DNA of 64,000 bases from Xanthobacter dioxanivorans (GTDB lineage: Bacteria > Pseudomonadota > Alphaproteobacteria > Rhizobiales > Xanthobacteraceae), in contig NZ_CP063362.1 of assembly GCF_016807805.1 (NCBI RefSeq), forward strand, positions 1,725,001 to 1,789,000, in the 5' to 3' direction. Of this stretch, positions 7,900 to 15,357 are shown piece by piece. How positions within the stretch are numbered: the stretch's first letter is position 1; each line of letters opens with the position of its first letter. The notes under the pieces are model-generated. The model did no database searches and was not told where the DNA came from. It saw nothing but the letters and a program-made list of their open reading frames with translations. Made by a program: the position numbers and the translations under genes.

Positions 7900-8529
7900 T
7901 CAGCTGCGGGCGGCGGAGAGGGCGACGGCGTCGCTGGCCACCACGTCGGCGGTATCGTCCGCGCCCATGAGGACGAGAAGCTTCGCGCGGGCCCGGTTCA
8001 CCCGGCTCTTGATGGTGCCGAGGGCACAGCCGCACACCTCGGCGGCCTCCTCATAGGACAGGCCGGCCGCGCCCACCAGCACCAGCGCCTCGCGCTGGTC
8101 GTCGGGCAGGTGGCCGAGGGCCTCCTTGAGCGAGGACAGGGTTGCCGACCATTCCTGGCTGGGCCCGATATTGGTGTCGAGCTGCGACAAGGCGGAAATG
8201 CCGTCGCTCTCGCGGCGCCGCTTGCGTATCTCGGTGTAGTAGGTGTTGCGCAGGATCGTGAACAGCCACGCCCTGAGGTTCGTCCCCGGATCGAACTTGT
8301 CGATGTTGGAGAGGGCCTTCAGCAGCGTCTCCTGCACCAGGTCGTCCGCCTCGGTGCGATTGCGCGTCAGCGAGCGGGCGAACGCGCGCAGGGCCGGCAG
8401 GAACTCCAGCACCTGGGTGCGCAAACTGGCGGCATCCATCTCCTGGCGAGCCTCTCGGTCCGGTTGGTCCTTCTTTGCATACGCGTGACGGTCTCCGGGC
8501 AGATCCATCGGCGGCGTGTCTTTCGGCAT
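7900..8529 (-). CDS. ecfG: EcfG-type (ECF15) general stress sigma factor
   Basis: An extracytoplasmic-function sigma factor of about 209 residues. Region 2 is LPALRAFARSLTRNRTEADD with LVQETLLKAL. Region 4 is LPDDQREALVLVG, LSYEEAAEVCGCALGTIKS and RVNRARAKL, close to the EcfG consensus. EcfG directs RNA polymerase to general-stress promoters and is normally held by NepR, which phosphorylated PhyR removes. ATG 8529 is taken; GTG 8568 or ATG 8511 are alternatives, and no strong ribosome site decides. The promoter at 8683-8708 fits the factor's own consensus, suggesting autoregulation. No nepR is seen upstream, where it usually sits. Confidence 0.85.
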   Translation of the reverse strand: MPKDTPPMDLPGDRHAYAKKDQPDREARQEMDAASLRTQVLEFLPALRAFARSLTRNRTEADDLVQETLLKALSNIDKFDPGTNLRAWLFTILRNTYYTEIRKRRRESDGISALSQLDTNIGPSQEWSATLSSLKEALGHLPDDQREALVLVGAAGLSYEEAAEVCGCALGTIKSRVNRARAKLLVLMGADDTADVVASDAVALSAARS

Positions 8530-8682
8530 CGGGTTGGGCCTCGGGACGGCGCACAGCACCTGCGGCACGTCATGTCCGGCGGCGCACCCGCCCGATGCGG
8601 AGGCCGGGGAGCCAGGGAGAAAACCTCCCTCGGTCCCGAGCCTCCGGAAGCGAGCATAGCGCCTGCCGGCCTGTTGTCCTGT

Positions 8683-8708
8683 AACGTTTGCGCGGGCTTC
8701 GTGGTTCC
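8683..8708 (-). promoter_or_regulatory. EcfG-dependent promoter of ecfG
   Basis: On the minus strand GGAAC (8708-8704) is followed by 17 bases and CGTT (8686-8683). This is the published alphaproteobacterial EcfG consensus GGAAC-N16/17-CGTT. It lies 153 bases before the chosen ecfG start and implies positive autoregulation. Confidence 0.75.
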
Positions 8709-8741
8709 CCGGCGGGCGATGCGGCCAGTCCAGCTGCGGGA

Positions 8742-9023
8742 TCAGTTGGCCCCGCCATTATTGCTCTGGGCGTTGCTCTTCTGGCCGCCCTTCTGGCCGG
8801 CCTGGGAGGCGAGGGTGCGATCGCGCGAGAAGCTGCGCTGCTCGTCCGCCACGCTCTGTCCGCCCTTGCGCCCGGCCTCGGCCGCGAGGGCGCGGTTCTG
8901 GAAGAAGCTCCGCTTTTCGGCCGGAACGCTCTCTCCGCCCTTACGGGCGATGGCGCGCTGCTTTTCCGCATCCATCGCAGCGAATCCGCGTTGGGATGTG
9001 CCCTTGGATCGAGCCTTGTCCAT
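8742..9023 (-). CDS. KGG-motif general stress protein (YciG-like)
   Basis: A small, very hydrophilic protein of 93 residues with two to three copies of the KGG stress motif: RGFAAMDAEKQRAIARKGG, then SVPAEKRSFFQNRALAAEAG and RKGGQSVADEQRSFSRDRTL. Such proteins are induced in stationary phase and osmotic stress in many bacteria; the molecular role is unclear. ATG 9023 (MDKARSKG) is chosen because GGAGGAG stands eight bases upstream. A consensus EcfG promoter is 53 bases ahead. Its placement inside the phyR/ecfG locus and its promoter make it a clear stress-regulon member. Confidence 0.88.
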   Translation of the reverse strand: MDKARSKGTSQRGFAAMDAEKQRAIARKGGESVPAEKRSFFQNRALAAEAGRKGGQSVADEQRSFSRDRTLASQAGQKGGQKSNAQSNNGGAN

Positions 9024-9075
9024 CTGCTGTGCTCCTCCGAACTGGCAATGCATCGCCACGTCGATACTCAGGAAG

Positions 9076-9100
9076 AACGAACCCGGCCGCCTTCGGTTCC
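9076..9100 (-). promoter_or_regulatory. EcfG-dependent promoter of the KGG stress gene
   Basis: On the minus strand GGAAC (9100-9096), 16 bases, CGTT (9079-9076), an exact consensus match. The start codon of the KGG gene follows 53 bases downstream. Confidence 0.78.
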
Positions 9101-9264
9101 GGTGCAGATTGCATTCGTTCGGCGGCGGCCCGCCGCGCGCCGTGGCATGATCACCAAATCCTTGAGAAAGAGGATGAATCCCGGGAGCGCGGCGCCGTCC
9201 TCCCGGCGCTCAATCCGCCCGGACCGCGCGCATGTCCGATCGGGACCGTTTTCGACCCTTGGAG

Positions 9265-11019
9265 CTAGAAGGCGTGCGCCGGCCGTGGCTTGGGGACCGG
9301 GCGGCAGGGGAATTCGCCCGCCACGAGGAAGGCGCCGTCCTCGGCCTTGCTCCGCGTCAGATTGCCGCCGAGCTGGGTGGCGAAGCCGCCGGCGAGGCTG
9401 GTGGGCTCGGCGGCGTCGTCCCAGCTGCCGGCGGCGCTGCGCACCGTGAGCTGCAGCCGATCGCCGACCACTGCGCCGCGCAGGGCGATGGCGGTGGAGC
9501 CCGACGGCAAGGACAGGGACAGCACCACCTCCACCACCATCAATGCGAGGGGCACCGCCATGTCGGTGGGCAGGCGCACGTCCTCGGCCTCCACCGTGAT
9601 GCGCGCATTGCACTCGACGCTGCCCTCCAGCAGCGAGGCGAGCTCGCCCAGAAGCTCCCGCAGCAGCACCTGCGACCCGTCGCTCGCCTCGTAGAGGATG
9701 CGGTGGACGAGGGCGAGCGTGTTGACCCGGGTGCGCAGCTGCTCGAAGCGCCGCCGGTCGTCGCCCCGCCCGATGCCCGAGCCGTAGAGGCTGAGCAGGC
9801 TCACCACCACCTGCAGGGAGTTCTTGATGCGGTGGTGGATCTCGCGCACCAACGCGGTCTTTTCGGCGAGGCTCTCGCGCAGGCGCGCATCCCGCAGCCG
9901 CACCGCCAGGGCCATGTTCTCCACCGCGTGGCCGAGCACCCGGAATTCGCTCGGCGCGGCGTCGAGGCGCGTGGGGCGGAAGCCGTAATGGCCCTGCGCA
10001 TAGACCGCCGTGACCCGCCGCAGATAGAGCAGCCAGCGCAGGATGATGCGGTCCACCGCCACCCACAGGGCGACAAGGGACAGGATGACGATGACCGCGG
10101 GCAGGGCCAGGCTCGCGGCGATGGCGAGGAAGGTCCAGCCGAACAGGCGATCGGACGGCATGGCGAACGCCACCGTGAGGCCGCGCCGGTCGAGCTTCGC
10201 GGTGGCGAAGGTCCAGCGCTGGCCCTGGGCGTCGGTGGCCTCGTGCAGGGTATGGCCGCCGGCGCCGAGGCTGGTCTCGAGATTGGCGGCGTCGAACAAG
10301 GCGGCGCTGACGCCGCGCGAATTGGAGACGAGTTCCTCGCCCAACGGGGAAAACAGGGCGACCACCCCGTTGGCGGGGGGGGTCTGCTGGCGCAGCTGAT
10401 TGTCGAGCCACGCCACGTCGATCCCCACCGCGAGGACCTTCTCCAGCTGGCCGGCATCGGTGCGCAGCGGCAGCGTCCCCACCAGCACCTGCTTGCCCGC
10501 CGCCGGGCTCTGCACCCGGCCGAAGAGGCTGAAGCCGGGCTGGGCCACCGCCGCCTGCCACCACGGGTCGTGGGCCACCTCGTCCTCCGTCACCGGGAGC
10601 GCGGCGCACAGCACCCGCCCTGAGGCATCGAGCACGCCGATATTGGCGACGAAGGGCAGGCTCACCGTGGCGCCGCGCAGGGTGGCCTGGCAGGTGGCGC
10701 CGCCGGTGCGCACCTCCTCCACGTTCTTGAGGGCGTAGAGCACGTTCTCGGCGGAGGCGAAGATGCTCTCCTGGGTCGCGGCGGCGGCGAGGGCGCGCTG
10801 GAGCAGATGCTGGCGCGCCTCCTCCTCCGCCCCGTTCAGCTGCATCACGCCCTGGGCGATGTTGAGGGCGGCGATGGGGGCCATGGCCAGCAGCACCACC
10901 AGGAGAAGCCGGCGCCGCACGCTGTCGAACAGGGACCGCGGCTGTCCCGCCACCGTCGCAAAGATGGCGTTGCGCTGCCTGTGGCGTCCCGGCACGGCCT
11001 TCGCCTTGCTCAATTCCAT
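9265..11019 (-). CDS. Membrane HisKA_2-type sensor with degenerate ATP site (PhyK/PhyP-like)
   Basis: 584 residues. A first membrane helix (about 37-58), a periplasmic sensor region to about residue 285, a second helix (about 290-325), a linker, then the phosphoacceptor box REIHHRIKNSLQVVVSLLSL with His intact near 410. In the catalytic domain the N-box should read like PLALIVNELVTNA, but here it is PLALMVVEVVLSLSL, lacking the Mg-binding Asn. The glycine-rich end (LAGGFATQLGGNLT) is weak. It may therefore be a phosphatase or scaffold acting on PhyR, as described for PhyP, rather than a kinase. It is divergent from phyR. Confidence 0.82.
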   Translation of the reverse strand: MELSKAKAVPGRHRQRNAIFATVAGQPRSLFDSVRRRLLLVVLLAMAPIAALNIAQGVMQLNGAEEEARQHLLQRALAAAATQESIFASAENVLYALKNVEEVRTGGATCQATLRGATVSLPFVANIGVLDASGRVLCAALPVTEDEVAHDPWWQAAVAQPGFSLFGRVQSPAAGKQVLVGTLPLRTDAGQLEKVLAVGIDVAWLDNQLRQQTPPANGVVALFSPLGEELVSNSRGVSAALFDAANLETSLGAGGHTLHEATDAQGQRWTFATAKLDRRGLTVAFAMPSDRLFGWTFLAIAASLALPAVIVILSLVALWVAVDRIILRWLLYLRRVTAVYAQGHYGFRPTRLDAAPSEFRVLGHAVENMALAVRLRDARLRESLAEKTALVREIHHRIKNSLQVVVSLLSLYGSGIGRGDDRRRFEQLRTRVNTLALVHRILYEASDGSQVLLRELLGELASLLEGSVECNARITVEAEDVRLPTDMAVPLALMVVEVVLSLSLPSGSTAIALRGAVVGDRLQLTVRSAAGSWDDAAEPTSLAGGFATQLGGNLTRSKAEDGAFLVAGEFPCRPVPKPRPAHAF

Positions 11020-11120
11020 AACTGCTCCGCAAAGCGCCGCACGCCGGATCAGGTCTCCGCCCGGGCGCTTTCGTACCGGACCGCAAAGTCGTCGCTGCGC
11101 GCGACCGCCGTCCGCACTAT

Positions 11121-11145
11121 AATGCGTTGCGATGCAGCAGGTTCC
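11121..11145 (-). promoter_or_regulatory. Near-consensus EcfG promoter for the sensor gene
   Basis: On the minus strand GGAAC (11145-11141), 16 bases, then CATT (11124-11121) where the consensus has CGTT. One mismatch; the position, about 100 bases before the sensor start, is sensible. Weak evidence. Confidence 0.3.
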
Positions 11146-11155
11146 CCAAGAGGAC

Positions 11156-11180
11156 GGAACTTAACCGCAAGGCCGGCGTT
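11156..11180 (+). promoter_or_regulatory. EcfG-dependent promoter of phyR
   Basis: GGAAC (11156-11160), 16 bases, CGTT (11177-11180): an exact match to the EcfG consensus, 42 bases before the phyR start. PhyR would thus be under the control of the sigma factor it releases. Confidence 0.8.
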
Positions 11181-11222
11181 ACCGGGCTTGGCTACGTCGA
11201 ACCAGCTTCCAAGGGATATCGC

Positions 11223-12020
11223 ATGGCTCCGAATGCGCTCGTCAAGCAGCTTCCGTACCTGCGCCGCTACACGCGGGCGCTGGTCGGCTCGCAGGCGAAG
11301 GGCGATCTGCTGGTGCAGAACACCCTGCAGGCGATCCTCGACGGCAAGGTCACGGTGGACGCCCAGGTCTCGCCGCGCGTCGCCCTCTACAAGGCGTTCC
11401 ACGAGGTGTGGAACCGCCGCCCGGCGACCGCGGGCGGAGCGACCTCGCGGGCCGACGCCCGGCTTCAGGCCATGGACCCGGCCTCGCGCATCGCGCTGCT
11501 GCTCACCGCGATGGAAGGGTTCTCCTACGCCGAGACCGCCAACATCCTCGGCACCAGCGTCGCCGACATCGAGGTGCAGGTGGTGTCGGCGCAGCGGGAG
11601 ATCGACCGGCAGATCGCCACCCGCGTCCTCATCATCGAGGACGAATGGGTGATCGCCCTCGACCTGAAGACCCTCGTCGCCGAGCTCGGGCACGAGGTGA
11701 TCGGCGTCGCCCCGACCCATACCAAGGCGGTGGAGCTCGCCAAGGCCGGCAATTTCGGCCTCGTGCTGGCCGACATCCAGCTGGCCGACGGCTCCTCCGG
11801 CATCGAGGCGGTGACCGAGATCCTGGAGAGCTTCAACGTGCCGGTGATCTTCATCACCGCCTTCCCCGACCGCCTTTTGACCGGCGAGCGGCCGGAGCCC
11901 ACCTATCTCATCACCAAGCCGTTCCTCACCGAGACGGTGAAGGCGACCATCGCCCAGGCGCTGTTCTTCCACGAAGCCCGGGCGCAACCCGAAGGCGCCG
12001 TCTCTGCCCGCACCGCCTGA
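11223..12020 (+). CDS. phyR: General stress anti-anti-sigma response regulator PhyR
   Basis: 265 residues. Residues 1 to about 130 form a sigma-factor-like domain (LPYLRRYTRALVGSQAKGD, then IALLLTAMEGFSYAETANIL) and residues about 135-255 a receiver. The receiver shows the acidic pair in VLIIEDEW, the phosphoacceptor Asp in LVLADIQLADGSSG and the Lys in YLITKPF. In the known mechanism, phosphorylated PhyR uses its sigma-like domain to bind NepR and free EcfG. ATG 11223 follows a consensus EcfG promoter by 42 bases. The DUF883 gene lies 40 bases downstream and is probably in the same transcript. Confidence 0.95.
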   Translation: MAPNALVKQLPYLRRYTRALVGSQAKGDLLVQNTLQAILDGKVTVDAQVSPRVALYKAFHEVWNRRPATAGGATSRADARLQAMDPASRIALLLTAMEGFSYAETANILGTSVADIEVQVVSAQREIDRQIATRVLIIEDEWVIALDLKTLVAELGHEVIGVAPTHTKAVELAKAGNFGLVLADIQLADGSSGIEAVTEILESFNVPVIFITAFPDRLLTGERPEPTYLITKPFLTETVKATIAQALFFHEARAQPEGAVSARTA

Positions 12021-12060
12021 AACCCCTTCCCCTGAGCTCTTGCCCGCGGAGATTCCCGAA

Positions 12061-12369
12061 ATGGCCGACAAGCCCGCAACCATAAAGTCCGTCTCCGCCG
12101 ATGCCGAGCCGAGCCTCGCCGATGTGCGCGAGGATCTCGACCAGCTGCGGACCGATTTCGCCCGCCTGCTGGAGACCCTCGGCAAGACGGCCCGCCACGG
12201 CGTCGAAGGTGCCGCAGGCGAGGCCGGGAGCGCGGCGGCCGACGTCACCGACTGGGCCGAGGGCCAGTACCTGACCCTGCGCGAGAGCATCCGCGAGCAG
12301 CCCATCACCGCCTGCGCCGTCGCGGCGGCGGTCGGCGTCATCCTCGGCCAGTTCCTTCTGCGCCGCTGA
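12061..12369 (+). CDS. DUF883 (ElaB/YqjD-like) membrane-anchored protein
   Basis: 102 residues beginning MADKPATIKS. A charged helical N-terminal half (LADVREDLDQLRTDFARLL) leads to a C-terminal transmembrane helix ACAVAAAVGVILGQFLLRR, the YqjD/ElaB plan. In E. coli these tail-anchored proteins associate with ribosomes in stationary phase. Position 40 bases after phyR and before a terminator suggests it is the second gene of a PhyR-EcfG stress operon. Confidence 0.85.
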   Translation: MADKPATIKSVSADAEPSLADVREDLDQLRTDFARLLETLGKTARHGVEGAAGEAGSAAADVTDWAEGQYLTLRESIREQPITACAVAAAVGVILGQFLLRR

Positions 12370-12507: not shown

Positions 12508-15357
12508 CTATTCGTCCGGAACGTCGAAGCCGAGCTTTTGCAGCGCCCGCCGCAGGGTGGCGCCGTCATAGGGCTTGCCCATGAGCGCGATGCGGGCCGA
12601 GCCGCCGAATTCGCCCTCCAGATCGGACGTGCCGTAGCCGGTGGCGATGATCACCGGCAGGTCGGGGGCGATCTCGGCGAGGTCGCGCACCACGGCGTCG
12701 CCGCGCATGTCGGGAAGCCCCACGTCCACCACCGCGAGCACCACCGCGCCCGGGGCCGCCGCGCGCGCATGGGCAAGGGCGGCATGGCCATGGGAGGCGA
12801 CGGTGACGTCGAAGCCGTGATCCTCCAGGATCTGCCGGGCTACGAGGGCGACAAACGGCTCGTCTTCCACGAGCAGCACCGTGCCGCGGTTGGCGGGTTC
12901 CTCCAGGACGTCTTTCACTTTCTCGACGAGCTCCCCCTGGCTGAAGGGCTTCGTGAGGAGCTGGGCCCGGGGACCCAGCCGCCCGTGATGGACGAGCGCA
13001 TTTCTGGCATATGCGGTGGTGAATAGCACCCGGATATTGGCAAGGCGCCGCTTTACCTCCTCGGCGAGGGCGCGGCCGTCCATGCCTTCGCCGAGGCGGA
13101 TGTCGGTGAACAGCAGGTCGGGGGTCTCGCCCTGGTCGAGGAGGACGAGGGCCGCGGCCGCGTCGGCGGCTTCGGCCACGTGATGCCCGGCGTCGCGCAG
13201 GGTGGCGGTGGTGAGGGCCCGCAATTGCGCATCGTCCTCCACCACGAGGATGGAGGCCGGGCGGGCGTGCGCCCCCCGCTGCGGCCGGGCGGGCGCGTTC
13301 TCCGCCGGCGCGGTCTCCTCGAGGCGCGGCAGATAGAGCTTTACGGTCGTGCCTTCGCCGCGCTCGCTGTAGATCATCACGTGACCGCCGGATTGCTTGA
13401 CGAAGCCGTAGACCTGGCTGAGGCCGAGCCCGGTGCCGTCGCGCGGGCCCTTGGTGGTGAAGAAGGGCTCGAAGGCGCGGGCGCGCACCTCCTCGGTCAT
13501 GCCGGTGCCGGTGTCGCTCACGAACGCCGCCACATACTGGCCGGGCAGGAGGTCCTCCAGGTCGGCGCAATAGGCCTCGTCCAGATAGGCGTTGGCGGTC
13601 TCGATGGTGAGCTTGCCGCCGTCCGGCATGGCGTCGCGGGCGTTGACGGCGAGGTTGAGGATGGCGTTCTCCAGCTGGTTGTGGTCGATCTCGGTGCGCC
13701 ACAGGCCGCCGGCGAGCACGGTCTCCACCATCACGCGCTCGCCCAGCGCGCTGCGCAGCATGTGCGACATGCCGGTGACGAGGCGGTTCACGTCGGTGGG
13801 ACGCGGGTCCAGCGGCTGGCGGCGGGAGAAGGCAAGGAGGCGCTGGGTGAGGGTCGCCGCCCGCAGCGCGCCCTGGCGGCCATAGTCGAGGAAGCGGCGG
13901 ATCTCGACCGCGTTCGGCGACACGCGCCGCTCGGCGGCCTCGAGATTGCCGATGATGACCGTGAGCAGGTTGTTGAAATCGTGGGCGATGCCGCCGGTGA
14001 GCTGGCCCACCGCCTCCATCTTCTGCGCCTGGCGCAGCTGCGCCTCCGCCTTCAGGCGATCCTCCATCTCCTGCTTCAGCAGGAGGTTCGTCGTCGCCAG
14101 CTCGGCCGTGCGCGCGGCGGCGAGGCGCTCCAGGTCCTCGTTGGTGCGGGCGAGGGCCTCGCGCGCGGCGACGATCTCGGAAATATCCGTGCAGCTGCCA
14201 TACCAGCGATCGATGCGGCCGTTGGCGTCCCGCACCGGCACCGCCCGGCACAGGAACCAGCGATAGGAGCCGGCGGCCGACCTCAACCGGCATTCGCGGG
14301 AGAAGGGCGCGCCGCTGCCGAGCGATGCGGCCCAGGCGTCGAGCGCCGGCGCGCTGTCGTCGGGATGGAGGAAGGTGTGCCATTCCCGCACCTGGCCGGG
14401 TTCCGGCGTCTCGCCGGTGAATTCGGCCCAGCGGCGGTTGTAATAGTCGCCGTGGCCGTCCGGCGTGCTGGTCCACACCATCTTCGGGAGGGCTTCGGCC
14501 AGAAGCCGGTAGCGCTGCTCGCTTTCGGCAAGGTCGCGCTCGGCCTTCTTGCGCTCGGTGATCTCCACCACGATGAGGCCGACCAGGCCGATGCTCTCGC
14601 CCTGGGTGCGCACCGGGAAATAGCTCACCAGCCAGTGCCGCCACACCGCGGGGGCGGCGGGGGTGGCTCCCTCCACCTCCACGTCGGCGATCACCGCCCC
14701 GGTCTCGATCACCCGCGACAGGCCGGGGGTGATGGCGGCGGCAAGCTGGGGCAGCAGCTCCGCCATGGAGCGGCCGGGATGCTCCGCGACCGGGATGCCG
14801 TTCATGCGCGCCAGCGTCTCGTTGACCCGGACGAAGCGCAGGTGGCGGTCGAAAAAGGCGAAGCCCACCGGCGCGTGGTCGAGCAGGGCCTCCAGCGTCG
14901 CCACGGTGGCATGCTGCGCCGCGACCGCCGAATGGAGGCGCGCCCGCGCGGCCTCGATGCGCCGCACGCCGGCACCGAGCCCGACCCCGGTGAGGAAGGT
15001 GGCGAGCGAGCCGAGGGCGAAGGAGGCGAAGGCGGCGCGCGCCACATGCGGCTCCGGCGCGCCCGGCGCCAGCGCGGAGGCATCGCGCGAGACGTGCAGC
15101 ATTCCGTCGCCGGCGACGAACACGAGCAGGGCCACGAGCCCGATGCGCGCGCCGCAGACCAGCGTCAGCATGAACAGCACCGGGATGTGGATGACGAACG
15201 GCGCGAATTCGCCCAGCTCGGGGCCGAAGGCGTAGCGCAGGCCGAATGCCGCCACCAGCGCCAGCGCGGCGAAGCCGAGCCGCCAGGCGGGCGGTCTTTG
15301 TTGTGTGATGATGGTGAGGAATGGGCCGGCCAGGCCCGGGTGGACTGATCCATCCAT
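12508..15357 (-). CDS. PAS-containing hybrid histidine kinase with two receivers
   Basis: 949 residues. Three to four membrane helices (about 25-125), two PAS-type sensor domains (about 150-275 and 280-400, the second with [13 protein letters not shown] and a PAC end), then a HisKA box [17 protein letters not shown] and an intact catalytic domain ([28 protein letters not shown]). Two receiver domains follow ([12 protein letters not shown] with [29 protein letters not shown] with [13 protein letters not shown]), both with their phosphoacceptor Asp. A phosphorelay role is inferred; output unknown. ATG 15357 has AGGAG upstream. No cognate regulator is adjacent. It is convergent with the phyR operon. 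Confidence 0.9.

Follow-up and report, generated by a model that had tools for sequence, protein, structure and literature searches.

How does a general stress locus restrain its sigma factor when the gene for the anti-sigma factor seems to be missing from it? The question is raised by positions 7900..12369 of a 64-kb window of Xanthobacter dioxanivorans DNA (the window is the whole stretch analysed, G000:C1:1725001-1789000; the genome is 6.65 Mb on 5 contigs, of which contig C1 is 6.28 Mb). The locus encodes the general-stress extracytoplasmic function (ECF) sigma factor EcfG and the anti-anti-sigma response regulator PhyR. An earlier note had seen no gene there for NepR, the protein that joins these two in the partner switch, and had left three alternatives: nepR had moved, was too divergent to recognize, or had given way to another anti-sigma factor. 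Our analysis indicates that this is very probably a standard PhyR-NepR-EcfG partner switch whose genes are split over two chromosomal sites. Since the genome carries nepR roughly half a megabase from the locus, the split appears to reflect gene rearrangement rather than a switch of a new type. Of the three alternatives, the first holds, with one NepR gene elsewhere in the genome; that moved gene is also divergent, in line with the second; and the third finds no support.

A divergent NepR is encoded outside the locus

A six-frame hmmsearch (--max) of the entire window with three NepR profiles found no NepR (best E 0.65). The NepR from elsewhere in the genome, which served as a positive control in the same three runs and is among the sequences of two of these profiles, was recovered at E 1e-38, 3e-5 and 3e-26. 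With the control found and nothing in the window, the original observation that no nepR is visible at the locus therefore stands. The search that the earlier note had proposed, with the Pfam NepR profile (PF18557) against genome and window, returned a single genome match, outside the window, at C1:1180543-1180641 (-) with 25.4 bits, all 54 candidates being scored. Scored with its neighbours in frame, the match reaches 25.9 bits, above the Pfam cut-off of 25.7. We could thus reject the possibility that NepR is missing from the genome, as a Pfam NepR match lies on the same contig as the locus. The note had named two findings that would speak against it, a nepR within the locus or one elsewhere in the genome whose product binds this EcfG; half of the second was obtained, in that nepR is encoded elsewhere in the same genome.

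The nepR gene spans about C1:1180450-1180710 (-), its predicted start codon being provisional. Measured between match starts, it is 552 kb from ecfG and 556 kb from phyR, and the usual linkage of nepR to either gene is absent from this genome. Its neighbours are a gene for a protein with six S1 domains, about 0.5 kb away, which we take to be ribosomal protein S1, and the trehalose genes otsB-otsA, about 2 kb away. We compared the gene across the Xanthobacter-Azorhizobium-Aquabacter clade, represented in our sample of relatives by 18 genomes, 14 of them Xanthobacter. The 18 clade NepR sequences have RRDISARQD..G.ELR.LF in common and 23 invariant columns in total. Their profile aligned to that of 24 canonical NepRs over 43 columns with a probability of 94.6 (E 7e-8). 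Against solved structures, its best match was Caulobacter NepR (3t0y_B, E 3.5e-4), and a second solved NepR (2lfw_B) appeared amid chance matches at E 0.72. Judged from sequence, the identity of this protein as NepR is supported by profile comparison and settled by the gene order described below. NepR is predicted to bind both EcfG and phosphorylated PhyR.

A second EcfG-NepR pair, considered at C1:94213, was rejected: the sigma factor there is a different one, and no NepR match was found at that site. The gene (L004:1159-1695 -) encodes an ECF sigma factor that is not EcfG, with 73 bits to Pfam PhyR_sigma2, and it overlaps an open reading frame (ORF) whose product, as read from the frame, resembles a membrane anti-sigma factor.

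Gene order in relatives identifies the moved gene

To place the split among relatives, we located the three core genes in 149 genomes of the family, scoring at most 39 NepR candidates per genome. A NepR match was found in 138 genomes, PhyR in 138 and EcfG in 136; all three were present in 134. The remaining 15 genomes, six with one or two of the genes and nine with none at the thresholds used, were left out. Distances were taken between match starts, using the nearest pair of copies in genomes with extra copies. Outside the clade, nepR and ecfG start within 1.5 kb of each other in every one of the 117 genomes with all three genes, and phyR is also within 1.5 kb of a nepR in 116 of them (of a second nepR copy in G160); in the one other genome, G030, phyR is on a separate contig. 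Among the 17 clade genomes of this sample, nepR is within 2.4 kb of ecfG in ten and is not in seven, all of which belong to the genus of the window.

The sister genera have nepR beside ecfG. In three Aquabacter-type genomes (G014, G019 and G031) the order is hk949-duf883-phyR-hk584-kgg-ecfG-nepR-otsB-otsA: nepR sits between ecfG and otsBA, with its 3' end facing that of ecfG. The same nepR-ecfG linkage occurs in named loci of Aquabacter (L134, L135, L137) and Azorhizobium (L132, L133). In Xanthobacter, nepR is still near otsB in 12 of the 14 genomes of the relatives sample, and in 13 of the 14 it is on a different contig from ecfG or hundreds of kilobases or more away; no ecfG was found in the remaining genome (G006) in the search of this sample. 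Wherever ecfG was found in Xanthobacter (13 genomes), it lies 3-4 kb from phyR. Three Azorhizobium genomes of the family sample (G026, G093, G117) keep nepR with ecfG and have phyR 30 kb away, megabases away or on another contig. From these gene positions it follows that the block was broken at a different point in each of the two lineages: as read from the sequences, Xanthobacter separated nepR from ecfG, and Azorhizobium separated phyR from ecfG-nepR.

One further genome of the family sample (G160) has two nepR matches more than 2 Mb apart, one near phyR and the other near the sole ecfG match; this may represent a further split of the stress genes, in another genus.

EcfG-type promoter motifs mark both sites

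We scanned for a strict form of the EcfG-type promoter motif, GGAAC-N15-18-CGTT; the EcfG-type consensus is published for Rhizobium etli (PMC3892343, in part). The motif occurs exactly three times in the window, on the correct strand each time: upstream of ecfG (8683..8708, -, GGAAC-N17-CGTT), of the KGG gene (9076..9100, -, GGAAC-N16-CGTT) and of phyR (11156..11180, +, GGAAC-N16-CGTT). About 1.2 occurrences on both strands would be expected (20 first-order resamplings). Across the clade, 14 of 17 genomes have the motif upstream of ecfG and 16 of 18 have it within 350 bp upstream of phyR; for the KGG gene it is present in all 21 locus records scanned, which represent 17 genomes, four of the records being repeats of loci. 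All 18 clade genomes also have it in the 800 bp upstream of nepR; being related, these genomes do not count as 18 independent events. In a permutation control for nepR, the next best of 360 word pairs reached 5 of 18, with a mean of 0.25 (true pair included). Outside the clade, 17 of 27 relatives have the strict motif within 450 bp of nepR. EcfG is predicted to recognize GGAAC-N16/17-CGTT upstream of ecfG, KGG, phyR and nepR.

A small conserved gene of about 110 codons apparently stands between motif and nepR in Xanthobacter (L002:8931-9461 (-); homologue L039:8002-8352 (+)). In an alignment of the Xanthobacter DNA, read by eye, this gene ends in R-L-Y-R-(D/E)-stop in 12 of 14 genomes, in R-L-F-R-E in G008 and differently in G011. 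The L039 homologue matched no Pfam family at E 0.05. A DUF1328 gene (L001:2572-2754 (+)) points away from the nepR unit, and close to it, on its own strand, is an EcfG-type motif.

Several observations weigh against the view that this gene is the nepR of an ordinary, EcfG-controlled switch. The predicted protein alone scores 24.4 bits with Pfam NepR, just below the cut-off of 25.7, and 20.1 bits with the NCBIfam NepR equivalog, far below that model's cut-off of 100; it is therefore a divergent NepR member. Its identity to 13 canonical rows is 18-28%, and Pfam NepR scores in the 18 clade genomes are 19.9-28.3 bits, compared with 35-65 bits for the best match of each of the 27 other genomes that have one. 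The two genes usually form a nepR-ecfG operon, but where the clade nepR lies beside ecfG they are on opposite strands; in addition, no otsBA was found near nepR in G004 and G013. The strict motif is lacking upstream of 3 of 17 clade ecfG and 2 of 18 clade phyR genes. Within 450 bp upstream of nepR it is present in only 3 of 18 clade genomes, and in none of the 14 Xanthobacter. In the genome of the window the conserved NepR core begins 793 bp downstream of it, and we can therefore only infer co-transcription with nepR. The 450-bp scan suggested that Xanthobacter had lost EcfG control of nepR; we dropped this idea after a 1200-bp scan, in which all 14 genomes had the motif 522-793 bp upstream of the NepR core.

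A probable standard partner switch encoded at two sites

The gene set, its split, the order of genes in relatives and the promoter motifs are observed; the protein-protein binding, transcription and phosphate flow of the switch we infer as follows. EcfG, PhyR and a putative phosphotransfer protein of PhyK/PhyT type would be supplied from the window, and NepR from about 552 kb away, where its gene lies close to otsBA and downstream of the small gene, which an EcfG-type motif precedes. At rest, NepR would hold EcfG. Under stress, PhyR would be phosphorylated and would bind NepR, freeing EcfG. The freed sigma factor would then transcribe ecfG, KGG, phyR and the nepR unit, and the brake would be restored. 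A more specific history would be that the ancestral nepR was replaced in the clade by a divergent NepR-family protein whose gene moved out of the ecfG operon, so that sigma and anti-sigma factor no longer shared one message, and that the genes of the switch were then scattered in two ways, mostly keeping EcfG-type promoters. We regard this fuller account as unlikely.

The sensor may pass phosphate to PhyR

The gene between KGG and phyR (9265..11019, -) encodes a membrane sensor histidine-kinase-like protein of 584 residues, with a dCache sensor and a HisKA_2 domain carrying HRxxN (Pfam). Its ATPase domain is degenerate, and no HATPase match was found with Pfam. The best NCBIfam match is PhyK, with 248.8 bits, below the equivalog cut-off of 750. 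HRxxN, the phospho-acceptor motif of the DHp domain, is kept in all 14 clade rows that cover the site. None of the 16 clade rows has the ATPase-domain motif DxGxG, which is present in the control, the other HisKA_2 kinase of this genome. The N-box asparagine is replaced in the protein of the window and in nine other rows and is retained in six. A reading by eye, according to which both ATPase motifs were lost throughout the clade, was discarded: the asparagine is kept in 6 of 16 rows, and therefore only the loss of DxGxG is general.

These features suggest a phosphotransferase of PhyK/PhyT type. Sphingomonas melonis PhyT (formerly PhyP) and Caulobacter PhyK are likewise membrane proteins with a periplasmic sensor and an HRxxN motif, according to the accessible parts of PMC5898713 and PMC5964349. 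PhyT also shares the position at the phyR locus and the degenerate ATPase domain, and it is described as passing phosphate from SdrG to PhyR (PMC5898713, in part). The likeness to PhyK is limited by the sub-threshold PhyK score and by the ATPase domain, which is conserved in the Caulobacter protein; PhyK is nevertheless described as passing phosphate from MrrA to PhyR despite that domain (PMC5964349, in part). By analogy with these two proteins, the sensor likely has the same phosphate-passing role towards PhyR. The genome's other kinase (C1:740235; L140:973-2130 +) combines receiver, HisKA_2 and HATPase domains and is the sole further HisKA_2/HWE match in the genome; it is a candidate primary kinase of the stress pathway.

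Other features of the locus

The five genes that the earlier note had named at 7900..12369 are all present by Pfam and NCBIfam, two of its descriptions needing qualification. The ecfG gene (7900..8508, -) matches Pfam Sigma70_r2, r4_2 and PhyR_sigma2; its product has ECF sigma regions 2 and 4 and is orthologous to the EcfG whose gene adjoins phyR/nepR. Its identity to its matches is 79-89% inside the clade and 47-59% in relatives outside it, and only the general sigma70-ECF model, among the 25 NCBIfam models shown, reached its cut-off. The ORF (7900-8568, -) is open from a GTG at 8568, and by comparison with relatives the likely start is the ATG at 8508, residue 21 (MDL...). The unusual N-terminal tail is thus partly a matter of start-codon choice, and it differs between close relatives. 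KGG, a KGG-repeat small stress protein of 105 aa (8742..9059, -), scores 62 bits with Pfam KGG. PhyR (11223..12020, +, 265 aa) scores 345 bits with NCBIfam NF006623 (cut-off 240) and has the Pfam domains PhyR_sigma2, PhyR_sigma-like and Response_reg, that is, a sigma-like N-terminal domain and a receiver domain. For the small protein of 102 aa encoded at 12061..12369 (+), the DUF883 label rests on a DUF883_C match (E 0.0013) that is weak, at 18.7 bits against a cut-off of 27, and we call it DUF883-like; a homologue adjoins phyR in 18 of 18 clade loci. Beyond it, a hybrid histidine kinase (PAS, HisKA, HATPase and two receivers) is encoded at 12508-15357 (-) of the window, and related sequence flanks the locus in many clade genomes.

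Alternative explanations

The moved gene could instead encode an accessory protein of NepR2 type, which antagonizes PhyR and does not necessarily bind EcfG. On this view the original nepR was lost from its operon, and EcfG was left either to this paralogue or to another brake. The divergent sequence and the inverted orientation of the clade nepR would fit, as would S. melonis NepR2, which binds PhyR and perhaps not EcfG (PMC6599016, in part). Yet the sampled clade genomes have no NepR match besides the clade gene (with at most 39 candidates per genome scored in the family sample), and this gene adjoins ecfG in the sister genera. The phenylalanine that it has at the PhyR-contact tyrosine is shared with the Caulobacter NepR of known structure. 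Finding a NepR of clade type outside the clade would have indicated a paralogue, but there was none in the 296 other genomes of the order (297 with the window's own; at most 18 candidates per genome scored): the window's own NepR scored 128 bits and the next best 37. We therefore consider this explanation improbable.

That EcfG is held by a local factor other than NepR, its own N-terminal tail, KGG or the DUF883-like protein, had been the earlier note's suggestion. In its favour, the EcfG of Methylobacterium extorquens is extended at the N terminus by about 55 NepR-like residues, and in that species, too, ecfG is away from phyR (PMC4814048, in part). The EcfG tail, KGG and the DUF883-like protein, however, score at most 2.8 bits with the three NepR profiles (best E 0.029, with only four sequences searched), and this profile test found no NepR-like tail of the Methylobacterium kind. 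Given that the tail varies between close relatives and that a NepR is present elsewhere in the genome, we find the suggestion very hard to sustain. We give practically no credence to an assembly artefact: most Xanthobacter relatives are drafts with nepR and ecfG on different contigs, and in G006, G007 and G009 only 1-2 kb of contig remain on the ecfG-facing side of nepR, but in G001, G003, G012 and the genome of the window both genes are on one long contig, hundreds of kilobases or more apart, and no true ecfG was found in any Xanthobacter nepR flank examined.

Discussion

The split switch of the window's genome resembles the canonical phyR / nepR-ecfG locus in its three core proteins, each found here in one copy, and in the EcfG-type motifs before ecfG, phyR and, via the small gene, nepR. 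It differs in that nepR is divergent, outside the ecfG operon and about 552 kb from ecfG and phyR. Dispersed core genes are also reported for M. extorquens AM1, where, in the available part of PMC4814048, none of six ecfG genes is at the phyR locus; because ecfG there is away from phyR, dispersal itself is not new. In that organism ecfG is multiplied, carries the NepR-like extension and is described as lacking an EcfG-type promoter (PMC4814048, in part), whereas the search of the window's genome found a single ecfG, which has an EcfG-type motif and lacks such an extension. In the open-licence literature searched, we found no description of a nepR apart from both partners or of two break points in one clade.

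The finding removes a candidate for a general stress response free of NepR. It also carries a caution, since a genome can encode NepR even when its stress locus shows none or when the Pfam score is close to the cut-off. Within the clade, the genes that became separated are not the same in the two lineages, and most of them have kept an EcfG-type motif. The clade thus offers a natural test of whether the partner switch needs the genes for its sigma and anti-sigma factors in one operon.

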